DNA from: Comamonas terrigena NBRC 13299
Lineage (GTDB): Bacteria; Pseudomonadota; Gammaproteobacteria; Burkholderiales; Burkholderiaceae_C
DNA length: 64,000 bases
Direction of reading: 5' to 3'
Assembly: GCF_006740045.1 (NCBI RefSeq)
Contig: NZ_AP019749.1
Location: 1,631,001-1,695,000, forward strand
The notes beneath the pieces were generated by a model, which worked only from the letters and a program-made list of their open reading frames with translations, did not search any database and had not been told where the DNA came from. The position numbers were made by a program, and so were the translations under genes. Shown here piece after piece: positions 60,600 through 64,000 of this stretch; positions within the stretch are counted from its first letter, which is position 1, and each line of letters starts with the position of its first letter.

Positions 60600-61118
60600 A
60601 TGACAGACGCAACGAACAATTCACCAAGCGATGCCGATGAAGGCCTGCAGCAGGACAGCGGCCTGGACCGCATCGACCGGCGCATTCTTGCCATCCTGCA
60701 GGACGATGGCCGCATCTCCAACCTGAAATTGGCCGAACGCGTGGCCCTGTCGCCCACCGCCGTGCTGGCCCGCGTGCAGCGCCTGACGCGCGAAAAGTTC
60801 ATCCTGGGCTACGAAGCCCGGCTGAACCCCCAGAAGCTGGGGGTCGGCATGCTGGTGTTTGTGGAAGTGCTGCTGGACCGCACCACGCCCAATGTGTTCG
60901 ATGAATTCAAAGCCGCCGTGCAGGTGCATCCCGAGGTGATGGAATGCCATATGGTGGCCGGCGGCTTTGACTATCTGCTCAAGACCCGCATGGCCGACAT
61001 GCACGCCTACCGCGCGTTCGCAGGCCGCGTGCTGTGGCAACTGCCCGGCGTTCGCGAGACGCGCACCTATGCGGTGATGGAAGAGGTCAAGGACGAGGCA
61101 CGGCTGCCGATGCGCTGA
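60600..61118 (+). CDS. Lrp/AsnC-family regulator, probable PutR
   Basis: Transcriptional regulator of 172 residues. After a polar 20-residue tail, the helix-turn-helix reads LDRIDRRILAILQDDGRISNLKLAERVALSPTAVLARVQRL, followed by the ligand-binding AsnC domain (LGVGMLVFVEVLLDRTTP, VMECHMVAGGFDYLLKTR). It is divergent from putA, the arrangement known for Lrp-type PutR activators in alpha- and betaproteobacteria, so proline-responsive control of putA is likely. ATG 60600 has no clear ribosome site. Confidence 0.92.
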   Translation: MTDATNNSPSDADEGLQQDSGLDRIDRRILAILQDDGRISNLKLAERVALSPTAVLARVQRLTREKFILGYEARLNPQKLGVGMLVFVEVLLDRTTPNVFDEFKAAVQVHPEVMECHMVAGGFDYLLKTRMADMHAYRAFAGRVLWQLPGVRETRTYAVMEEVKDEARLPMR

Positions 61119-61258
61119 GCAGCGGCAGGCCCCGACCTGTCCGGCCCGTCGCACCATGGCTTGTGCGGGCTCTTCAGGCCGCCGTCGAGCGACGAAGGCC
61201 GCGAAGGCACCGGCAGTCTCCCTGCCCGAGGTTGGAATGGATCGGCGGGTGATCCGTT

Positions 61259-61738
61259 TCAGTGCAGTCCGGCTTTGTCCAGCCCGAACATCTGGTCCTT
61301 CGAGCCCGGCAGGTTGCGAAAGGCCACATTGAGGCGGTTCCAGCCGTTGATGGCCACCACGCGGAAGGTGAGCTCGGAGAGCTCGGTGTCCTCGAAGTGC
61401 TCGCGGGCGGCGGCATAGAGTTCGTCCGGGACCCCTTCGCCCTGGATTCTCGTCAGCGCTTCGGTCCAGGCCAGGGCCATGCGCTCTTGCGGCGTGAACA
61501 GCGTGGACTCCCGCCAGATGGTGAGGTGGTGCAGGCGCAGCTCGCGCTCACCGTGGAGCCTGGCCTGCTTGACGTGCATGTCGAGGCAGAAGGCACATCC
61601 GTTCAGTTGCGAAGCACGAATGTCCACCAGCAGGGCGAGGCTCTGGTCCAGCTTGCCGGCCATGCCGAACGCGAGATATTTCCTGAACAGGTCGGGCGAG
61701 GTTTGCATGTAGTCGAGGCGTGGCGAATGTGCAGTCAT
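61259..61738 (-). CDS. AhpD-like carboxymuconolactone decarboxylase-family protein
   Basis: A 159-residue protein with the AhpD core: LVDIRASQLNGCAFCLDMHVKQAR, whose CxxC (Cys48, Cys51) and His55 form the peroxidase-like redox site. Members of this family are the standard genomic and regulatory partner of ECF41 sigma factors. Immediately upstream (61799-61825) is an exact ECF41-type promoter, and the sigma gene lies just beyond. AAGGAA sits six bases before ATG 61738; an overlapping ATG at 61744 has no spacing. Substrate unknown. Confidence 0.92.
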   Translation of the reverse strand: MTAHSPRLDYMQTSPDLFRKYLAFGMAGKLDQSLALLVDIRASQLNGCAFCLDMHVKQARLHGERELRLHHLTIWRESTLFTPQERMALAWTEALTRIQGEGVPDELYAAAREHFEDTELSELTFRVVAINGWNRLNVAFRNLPGSKDQMFGLDKAGLH

Positions 61739-61798
61739 GGTCATTTCCTTGGTACAGGTTGGCGTACCGGGCTTGCAGCAAGCGCGGGACATGAACAA

Positions 61799-61825
61799 GA
61801 CGACAGGGCCGGGTGCTTTGTGACA
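61799..61825 (-). promoter_or_regulatory. ECF41-type promoter of the AhpD-like gene
   Basis: On the minus strand TGTCACA (61825-61819) and CGTC (61802-61799) are separated by exactly 16 bases, matching the published ECF41 promoter pattern. Transcription would start near 61792, giving a leader of about 54 bases to ATG 61738. It lies in the 103-bp gap between the sigma gene and its target. Confidence 0.88.
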
Positions 61826-61841
61826 TGCGCACCGGATTTTT

Positions 61842-62789
61842 CTAATCCTGCACCGCCTGCTTCTGCACGATCCCGGCCAGCTTGTCCGGGTTGCGCTGTA
61901 TGTAGAGTGCGCCGATGCGGCTTTCTGCCCCGGTGGCAGGGGTGAGAGTGATGGTCTGCACCGGTGCGCCATGGTTGTGATCGTCCACGATCAGGCAGCC
62001 AGGCAGACCATTGACCACGGTCGGCACAATGCGCCAGCCACGGTTGTGCTCCAGCTTCGCCCAGCCGATCAGGGCCTTGGCAATGCCGACGCTGCCGCAC
62101 AGCGGCCTGGTGATTGCGCTGACCTTGCCGCCGCCATCGGCCACCATCACCGCGTCGCTTGCCAGCACCTGCGCCAATGCGTGGATGTCCCGGGTGCGTA
62201 TGGCCTGGGCAAAGGCTGCGGCCAGGCGCTGGCGCTCCTCGTCGGCAACTTCGCAGCGTGCGTAGCCCGCCTTGATGTGCCGGCGTGCCCGGCTGACCAG
62301 CTGGCGGCAGGCGTCGGTGCCGCGGTCGAGATGGCGGCCGATCTCTTCGTACTCCAAATCGAACACGTCGTGCAGCAGGAAGGCTGCACGCTCCAGCGGT
62401 GACAGGCGCTCCAGCGCCAGCATGAAGGCCACCGAGACGTCCTGGGCAAATTCCGTCTGCCGCTCGGGACTGGGGGCCCAGCCAAACAGCAGGTCGTCCT
62501 CGAGCAGCGGCTCGGGCAGCCAGATGCCTATGTACTGTTCGCGCCGCACCGCTGCCGACCCCAGCTTGTCGAGGCACAGATTGGTGGTCAGGCGTGACAG
62601 GTAGGCGCCCGGATTGTCGATCCCGCTCTCGTCCACCTCGACCCAGCGCAGCCAGGTGTCCTGCACGATGTCTTCTGCCTCCGCGCGCGAGCCCAGCATG
62701 CGATAGGCCAGCGCCCGCAGCCTGCGTGCATGTTCGGCGTCATAGCGGCGTGCGCGTTCGTCGGGAGAGTAGGGATTTTTCTGGATCAC
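61842..62789 (-). CDS. ECF41-family RNA polymerase sigma factor (SigJ type)
   Basis: Extracytoplasmic-function sigma factor of 315 residues with regions sigma2 (RALAYRMLGSRAEAEDIVQDTWLRWV, about 26-50) and sigma4 (ALERLSPLERAAFLLHDVFDLEYEEIGRHLDR, about 125-156). A C-terminal SnoaL-like domain (about 185-310) serves as a built-in regulator in place of an anti-sigma factor. The ECF41 hallmarks are all present: WLPEP (90-94) in the linker, DGGGK (218-222) and NPDKL (300-304). The start is taken as GTG 62789, with GAGAG nine bases upstream; it fits a 35-base leader from the promoter at 62832-62858. It regulates itself and the AhpD-like neighbour by promoter match. Confidence 0.93.
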   Translation of the reverse strand: MIQKNPYSPDERARRYDAEHARRLRALAYRMLGSRAEAEDIVQDTWLRWVEVDESGIDNPGAYLSRLTTNLCLDKLGSAAVRREQYIGIWLPEPLLEDDLLFGWAPSPERQTEFAQDVSVAFMLALERLSPLERAAFLLHDVFDLEYEEIGRHLDRGTDACRQLVSRARRHIKAGYARCEVADEERQRLAAAFAQAIRTRDIHALAQVLASDAVMVADGGGKVSAITRPLCGSVGIAKALIGWAKLEHNRGWRIVPTVVNGLPGCLIVDDHNHGAPVQTITLTPATGAESRIGALYIQRNPDKLAGIVQKQAVQD

Positions 62790-62831
62790 GGGTGCGGTCT
62801 CTCGGCTCGCCCCAAGCGGGCGCACCAGTAT

Positions 62832-62858
62832 GACGACATAGCCTTCATGGGTGTGACA
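62832..62858 (-). promoter_or_regulatory. ECF41-type promoter of the sigma factor gene
   Basis: On the minus strand TGTCACA (62858-62852) and CGTC (62835-62832) have exactly 16 bases between them, as in the promoter at 61799-61825. Transcription would begin about 62825, some 35 bases before GTG 62789, indicating autoregulation. Confidence 0.85.
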
Positions 62859-63026
62859 TGAACGGCCGCGCTGTGGCTCCGGCGGCCGGGAACAGCTGGC
62901 GCATGGCCCTGCGGGGTCAGCAGGCGGAATGCCGACCGGCTGGTGCAGGCTCTTGTCCTGTCCCTCTTTCCCAGAAGCCGTCGCAGGGGCAGGCGAATAG
63001 GTACCACATGAGACAATCGCGCCACC

Positions 63027-64000
63027 ATGAGTGACCAGAACGACAAGATTTCCCCCGATACCGAGTACGCCGCCATGCCCGCCGCCGACCCCAACCTGCC
63101 CGAGGGCTGGCTGGAGGTGGTGTCCATGGACATGGAGGCCAAGGGTGTGGCCCGCAAGCCCGACGGCAAGGTGGTGTTCATTGACGGCGCCCTGCCGACC
63201 GAGCTGGTCACGGCCAATGTGCACCGCAAGAAGAACAACTGGGAAGCCGCCAGCCTGCGCGAGATCCACCGCGAATCCGCGCAGCGGGTGAAGCCCGGCT
63301 GCCCCAACGCCGGCCTGCACGAAGGTGCCTGCGGCGGCTGCAAGATGCAGCACATGCATGTCGCAGCCCAGGTGGCCGTCAAGCAGCGCGTGCTGGAAGA
63401 CAATCTGTGGCACCTGGGCAAGGTGAAGCCTGAAACCCTGTTGCGCCCCATCGAAGGCCCGACCTGGGGCTACCGCTACCGCGCCCGCCTGTCGGTGCGC
63501 TATGTGATCAAGAAGGGCAAGGTGCTGGTGGGCTTCCATGAGCGCAAGAGCCGCTATATTGCCGACATGGAAACCTGCAAGGTGCTGCCGCCCCATGTGG
63601 ATGCCATGCTGATGCCCATGCGGGCACTGATTGCCAGCCTGGATGCGCGCGAGACCTGCCCGCAGATCGAAGTAGCCTGCGGCGACGACGTGACGGCCCT
63701 GGTGCTGCGCCACCTGGAGCCCTTGAGCGACGCCGACCTGCAGCGTTTGCGTGACTTCGGCACGCAGTACGACGTGCAGTGGTGGCTGCAGCCCAAGGGG
63801 CCGGACACCGTGCACCTGATGGAGCAGGGCGGTACCCAGCTGGCGTATTCCCTGCCGGACTTCGGCATCACCATGCCGTTCAAGCCAACCGACTTCACCC
63901 AGGTGAATCCGCACATCAACCGCGTGCTGGTGACGCGTTCGCTGCGCCTGCTGGCGGCGCAGAAGACCGATCGCGTGATTGACTGGTTCTGCGGTCTGGG
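63027..64000 (+). CDS. rlmD: 23S rRNA (uracil(1939)-C5)-methyltransferase RlmD (3' end cut off)
   Basis: SAM-dependent methyltransferase with an iron-sulfur cluster. The first 324 residues are visible: an N-terminal TRAM-like OB domain ([30 protein letters not shown]), the cluster cysteines in [18 protein letters not shown] (about residues 92-109), a further Cys near METCKVL, and the start of the methyltransferase domain with [12 protein letters not shown] and VIDWFCGLG at the window edge. The catalytic cysteine region lies beyond. It is divergent from the ECF41 sigma gene with 237 bp between start codons. Confidence 0.93.

Follow-up and report, generated by a model that had tools for sequence, protein, structure and literature searches.

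The window, the 64-kb stretch of DNA analysed here, carries what comparison with related genomes supports well as a full ECF41 module, predicted to consist of autoregulation and a single target: a sigma gene (315 codons) followed on the minus strand, after 103 bases, by a CMD gene (159 codons), each preceded by its own predicted promoter (Table 1). The pair very probably operates as a self-contained one-component switch, in which the ECF41 sigma factor would activate both its own gene and that of its CMD/AhpD-like neighbour. The anatomy of the locus, its conservation, the uniqueness of the two promoter sites in the genome and the tracking of promoter with sigma factor across genomes are results of this analysis. 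The locus adds a member to the published ECF41 kind, bringing nothing new to the family and leaving knowledge of its mechanism unchanged; what is new here is the genus-wide comparison of the promoter with the presence of the sigma factor. As an example of its family it is clean and well matched, and the literature surveyed reports no inducing signal for that family.

Table 1. Features of the ECF41 locus, with positions in the window.
Feature	Position	Strand	Details
Predicted ECF41 promoter of the sigma gene	62832..62858	-	-35 TGTCACA 62858-62852, -10 CGTC 62835-62832, spacer 16; matches the published consensus (PMC3426412)
ECF41-type sigma factor, 315 aa	61842..62789	-	sigma-2, WLPEP linker, sigma-4, fused C-terminal SnoaL/NTF2-like domain
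WLPEP motif (residues 90-94), sigma2-sigma4 linker	62508..62522	-	sequence and alignment; ECF41 signature in PMC3426412
DGGGK motif (residues 218-222), start of C-terminal domain	62124..62138	-	in 22/22 genus members
NPDKL motif (residues 300-304), ECF41 distal contact motif	61878..61892	-	role described in PMC7730460
Predicted ECF41 promoter of the CMD/AhpD-like gene	61799..61825	-	-35 61825-61819, -10 61802-61799, spacer 16
CMD/AhpD-like protein, 159 aa, predicted target	61259..61738	-	profile matches and PDB relatives
CAFCLDMH (CxxC-x3-H), residues 48-55 of the AhpD-like protein	61574..61597	-	sequence

The ECF41 sigma factor

The sigma gene begins with GTG, and its 83%-identical copy in genome G017 has ATG at the same place. 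Both sigma regions of an ECF core are present, region 2 (PF04542, 54.4 bits) and region 4 (PF08281, 47.9 bits). The protein scores above the cut-off of the SigJ profile PRK09636 (304.4 bits; cut-off 271) and below that of the SigX4 profile TIGR02957 (301.5 bits; cut-off 323.25). The genome yields 14 further matches to PRK09636, none above 43.9 bits, and so has this one ECF41 gene over the cut-off. The neighbouring genes encode the CMD protein, an Lrp-type regulator and RlmD; thus no anti-sigma gene adjoins the sigma gene, and a partner of the CMD, oxidoreductase or epimerase kind does.

The three motifs by which the preliminary description assigned the protein to ECF41 (WLPEP, DGGGK and NPDKL) were all located, WLPEP in the linker and the other two in a C-terminal extension of about 100 residues. 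The designation of DGGGK as an ECF41 C-terminal signature follows that description. An alignment of 38 sequences (the query and 37 of the 120 homologues listed) has W90-P94 and D218-G221 invariant (38/38) and K222 conserved in at least 90%; within the distal motif, N300, P301, K303 and L304 are likewise invariant, and D302 reaches at least 90%. Among the ECF41 members of the genus, 21 of 22 have NPDKL and one has NPEKL.

The same description had called the C-terminal domain SnoaL-like, a statement that is supported by sequence and fold comparison and finds no counterpart in Pfam, where SnoaL_2 gave no match to the sigma factor at E ≤ 0.001. Residues 22-310 match SigJ of Mycobacterium tuberculosis (5xe7) by sequence (E 8.5e-37), the closest solved structure by that measure, with which the SnoaL_2 tail is shared, although identity in fold alignments is 28-31%. 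The predicted model is of moderate confidence (mean pLDDT 69.3, pTM 0.49); across residues 201-310, nine of eleven 10-residue blocks have pLDDT 73-87, one 68 and one 49. Its fold matches are 7qh5, 5xe7 and the SnoaL-like 3dxo. The top match, 7qh5, is Streptomyces SigG1 of group ECF56, which has a SnoaL_2 tail in common with the window's protein but differs in being without NPDKL and in having a separate antagonist, RsfG (PMC7730460). Together, the 5xe7 sequence match and the modelled fold support a C-terminal SnoaL/NTF2-like domain. The WLPEP linker has a pLDDT of about 30, so the model is uninformative on contact between linker and tail.

The CMD/AhpD-like partner

The downstream gene encodes the kind of AhpD-like partner that had been proposed for it: the product matches PF02627 (CMD, 65.8 bits), passes the cut-off of the AhpD core domain TIGR00778 (48.8 bits; cut-off 27.8) and has a CxxC-x3-H motif. 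Its relatives in the PDB include PA0269 (2o4d), also 2ijc and 7xw1, and Atu0492 (2gmy). PA0269 and Atu0492 are clear sequence relatives with solved structures, labelled hypothetical proteins; in alignments the CxxC is common to the window's protein, 2ijc and 2o4d.

Through its CxxC-H site, the enzyme probably removes a reactive compound, which, speculatively, might perhaps be the inducer itself. Counting against an antioxidant role, Wecke et al. (2012) reported that two ECF41 systems showed no phenotype under hydrogen peroxide, organic hydroperoxides or paraquat (PMC3426412). Their paper gives no inducing signal for ECF41, and what the preliminary description says on signal and AhpD substrate agrees with this literature. 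PMC3426412 also relates that a sigJ mutant of M. tuberculosis has a slight increase in H2O2 sensitivity. The Burkholderia CMD gene BCAL3214 was up 35-fold under hypochlorite (PMC2830190), which is a lead at most.

Alternatively, the CMD/AhpD-like protein could regulate the sigma factor, as anti-sigma factor or sensor, rather than be its output enzyme. The tight genetic association of the two across phyla (PMC3426412) would suit such a role, and a small thiol protein could conceivably sense redox state; nevertheless, we consider this reading highly improbable, given that co-expression of the CMD protein YdfG with Ecf41Bli left promoter activity unchanged and that the C-terminal extension explains inhibition (PMC3426412), and given that sigma factor and CMD are unlinked in six relatives (see below). 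On the published YdfG/Ecf41Bli data, we reject an anti-sigma role of CMD.

The predicted promoters and the proposed switch

TGTCACA-N16-CGTC occurs exactly, with the identical 16-base spacer, at both positions given for it in the preliminary description (62858-62832 and 61825-61799, minus strand). Allowing the published spacer of 16 ± 1, each of the two genes has the promoter, in both cases as an exact N16 site. The first ends 42 bases before the GTG start of the sigma gene, and the second lies 16 bases past the end of the sigma gene and 60 bases before the ATG of the CMD gene. In a scan of the window with spacers of 14-18, these were the 2 matches in 64 kb, against 0.20 expected from 100 shuffles, of which 1/100 reached 2. 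No intrinsic-terminator-like site was found in 61050-63150, an absence of little weight since shuffles give just 0.8; with no such site between the genes, transcription from the first promoter is likely to run on into the CMD gene.

We propose that the SnoaL/NTF2-like tail would keep the sigma core of the same protein weakly active, with the distal motif touching the WLPEP linker, and that a small-molecule or redox signal would shift the conformation of the tail. The activated factor would then drive its own promoter, in positive feedback, as well as the CMD/AhpD-like promoter; transcripts from the first promoter would probably continue into the CMD gene, such that CMD would be made in excess over sigma factor and could clear the reactive compound. 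Tail inhibition, sigma-dependent CMD transcription and the identity of the promoter have been reported for relatives, and we infer the activation step or ligand release, autoregulation and read-through for this locus. A conformational mechanism of ECF41 is described in a review (PMC8999054).

Wecke et al. (2012) described the ECF41 promoter, WLPEP and the C-terminal motifs, the inhibitory extension, the CMD partner and a single-target regulon (PMC3426412). The window's locus resembles their systems, Ecf41Bli/ydfG of Bacillus licheniformis and Ecf41Rsp/RSP_0606 of Rhodobacter sphaeroides, in the sigma-2/4 core, WLPEP linker and C-terminal extension, and also in the CMD partner with CxxC, TGTCACA-n16-CGTC and the one-target regulon (PMC3426412). 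It differs in that the sigma gene is upstream and each gene has its own exact promoter. RpoE9/SMb20029 of Sinorhizobium meliloti likewise combines an ECF41 sigma factor, a single CMD target and a matching promoter, but there the CMD gene is upstream of the sigma gene, the two likely in one operon with one promoter (PMC6180224).

Extent of the regulon in the genome

The genome (one contig of 4,673,011 bases) was scanned for TGTCACA-N16-CGTC, as the preliminary description had suggested, and has two exact sites, both already in the module. The pattern as such is not enriched: its reverse, used as a control, has 4 exact N16 matches in this genome against the 2 true ones, and 52 (the sum of the control columns) against 65 in 53 genomes of the genus. 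It is the placement of the sites, not their raw count, that is non-random.

A wider regulon, in which the sigma factor would drive unlinked genes through imperfect sites, is unlikely, though less so than the other alternatives weighed here. The genome has 33 N16 sites with one mismatch, to which exact boxes with two N15 spacers and one N17 spacer can be added (the last three within the published 16 ± 1); elsewhere, an exact site precedes a second CMD gene in genome G032, and the lateral flagella of Azospirillum are reportedly under the control of an ECF41 factor (PMC12826043). Set against this, the N16 sites with no more than one mismatch total 35, the two exact ones included, compared with 60 for the backwards pattern. 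Of the 28 one-mismatch sites inspected among the 33, 27 fall in open frames that are 100 codons or longer and 21 in frames of 300 codons or more, with both strands considered, counts to be read knowing that long chance open frames are common in such GC-rich DNA. Moreover, three near-consensus promoters of B. licheniformis were not activated (Wecke et al., 2012; PMC3426412), and S. meliloti RpoE9 has one target (PMC6180224). The "closed regulon" of the preliminary description therefore applies to the exact N16 sites of this genome (2/2) and is too strong as a general statement in view of the one-mismatch sites, the second CMD site of G032 and the Azospirillum flagella. At the level of the consensus, the regulon is predicted to consist of these two genes, with weaker targets conceivable from the sequence.

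With spacers of 14-18, the genome has four further exact-box sites (two N15, one N17 and one N18), against 8 for the backwards control. The N18 and both N15 sites were rejected as targets, lying inside open frames of at least 307 codons on one strand or the other; by our reading, L005, one of the N15 sites, may be close to where a rhodanese-like gene begins. The N17 site (L183, G000:C1:4343770-4343797) is followed by a 30-codon frame, and the next long gene begins some 185-190 bases on, a distance that speaks against a wider regulon; we treat the site as probably chance. That gene resembles, by eye, one for an iron-siderophore binding protein, and before it lies a palindrome that we take to be Fur-box-like.

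Promoter and sigma factor across the genus

Among 53 genomes of the genus, ECF41 genes (E ≤ 1e-30) were found in 22, one copy each, and relatives of the window's CMD gene (E ≤ 1e-10) gave 47 matches in 41. All 22 sigma genes and 47 CMD matches were checked for the promoter, with spacers of 15-17, in the 300 bases upstream and the first 45 of the matched stretch. An exact N16 site precedes 20 of the 22 sigma genes, and the remaining two (G002 and G033) have an N16 site with one mismatch. Every ECF41 genome but G008 (21 of 22) has at least one CMD gene with an exact site. Counted by gene, 22 of the 27 CMD matches in ECF41 genomes have an exact site; the five without are that of G008, two in the window's own genome and one each in G017 and G020. 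G008 (L133, C17) carries the most divergent ECF41 of the genus, with DGGGK and NPDKL kept and no exact WLPEP; its sigma promoter is exact, and its CMD gene directly follows the sigma gene, with no site of its own.

None of the 20 CMD matches in the 19 genomes without ECF41 has an exact site or one within two mismatches (0/20 for both). Their best sites have 3-4 mismatches, similar to the bulk of shuffled stretches of the same base composition, which peak at 3 mismatches, followed by 4. For the association of ECF41 presence with CMD-site presence, Fisher's test gives p 8e-11, a value that overstates independence, since the genomes are related, and is descriptive. Many CMD matches in ECF41-lacking genomes are distant and probably belong to other CMD subfamilies, and the contrast may thus be partly one of paralogy; the nearest such copies (G027 and G039, 60% identical) are also without the site. 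The genus provides a natural control, in which ECF41 genomes nearly all have a promoter-bearing CMD gene and no promoter was found at the CMD matches of sigma-less genomes.

The genus has 65 exact N16 sites, 42 of which stand before these genes (20 + 22); the other 23 amount to about 0.4 per genome. The spacers vary (mean identity 0.50 for 24 sigma promoters and 0.51 for 23 CMD promoters) and the box columns are 96-100% constant for sigma genes; the 100% for CMD genes holds by construction, exact sites alone having been entered.

These data bear on the possibility that a different promoter provides most transcription of the sigma gene, with 62858-62832 a minor or inactive relic and CMD the sole true target. 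In the 2012 survey, fewer than 30% of sigma genes in sigma-upstream loci had the motif, and about 20% of such loci had it at both genes (PMC3426412), which would favour a relic. In this genus, by contrast, both sites are exact in 15 of the 16 linked loci, and none of the 22 sigma genes has more than one mismatch in its site; the boxes have been kept while the spacers drift, unlinked copies included. Furthermore, no sigma-70-like promoter was found on either strand of 61050-63150, which weighs little given that shuffles yield just 0.2. A relic promoter thus appears improbable, and transcription of both genes by the sigma factor remains our preferred reading.

Certain of the other exact sites recur. 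One shared by G028, G048 and G049 lies antisense within a frame of TetR type by eye and is probably kept by coding, and was rejected as a target (L104 and L105 were inspected, and L106 has the same 27-mer and downstream frame). Another, in G015, G021 and G023, was rejected as an ECF41 target in that these genomes are without ECF41 at E ≤ 1e-30. In two ECF41 genomes (L099, G048:C1:220163; L107, G007:C1:195369), an intergenic exact site stands roughly 75 bases upstream of a gene that encodes some 399 residues; it is a candidate further target, although the two stretches are nearly identical.

Linked and unlinked pairs

Sigma and CMD genes are adjacent, with sigma first, in 16 of the 22 ECF41 genomes, and apart in six (G001, G002, G032, G033, G051 and G052). 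In G052, the two are on one contig, about 152 kb apart; in the other five, they are on different contigs of drafts (that of G033 being 59% complete), and no CMD match was found in the sequence next to the sigma gene. The CMD site is exact in all six unlinked pairs, and the sigma site is exact in four and has one mismatch in two. Because the sites are exact or nearly so even where the genes have parted, the comparison supports a genuine pairing of sigma factor and promoter. The six unlinked members form one group in the CMD tree (100/100), and five of them group in the sigma tree (82/85), in which the placement of G032 is unsettled and several forks are weakly supported; a single separation event likely lies behind them.

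We regard it as slightly favoured, on balance, that the ECF41 factor of the genus governs a trans-acting, separable one-sigma regulon, given that the pairing was kept after the split, that no such promoter was found at the 20 CMD matches examined in sigma-less genomes and that the regulon of G032 may have gained a second CMD gene. If so, ECF41 would be a small evolving network and not a fixed two-gene cassette. For experiments, convenient copies are that of G017, which has the same two promoters, and the unlinked versions, which lend themselves to tests in trans. The second CMD gene of G032 (L171, G032:C22:255990-260343; CAHCIDIH), with exact TGTCACA-N16-CGTC upstream, lies on a contig apart from both the ECF41 gene and the first CMD gene, and is a possible recruited target.

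Close copies and the genomic slot

G017 has the sole close copy in the genus (sigma 83% and CMD 89% identical), the sigma factors of the other 20 ECF41-bearing members being 41-46% identical. From 399 sampled genomes of the order, G288 (69%) and G387 (64%) can be added at E ≤ 1e-90. G017, G288 and G387 all keep both exact N16 sites, and their spacers are identical to the window's at 12, 5 and 5 of 16 positions, respectively, for the sigma promoter and at 14, 6 and 7 of 16 for the CMD promoter.

The G+C content of the cassette (64.9%) is that of the window (64.8%), and its third-position G+C is like that of its neighbours; a foreign origin thus finds no support in composition, which is native. 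Judged by sequence comparison, the cassette occupies a variable slot. Between the conserved flanks, the Lrp-type gene and rlmD (61119-63026), G035, G036 and G037 have other genes in its place: by eye, an acyltransferase-like frame in G035 (L243), a transposase and others in G036 (L242) and other genes in G037 (L245). The G017 cassette (L246, G017:C1:2046000-2064000) has a different location, some 0.4 kb from a gene that looks by eye like one for a permease and the counterpart of which is about 3.3 kb from the window's cassette, on the far side of rlmD. The lrp and putA genes of G017 are far from its cassette, and gene order has been rearranged around the cassette relative to the window (61255-62862).
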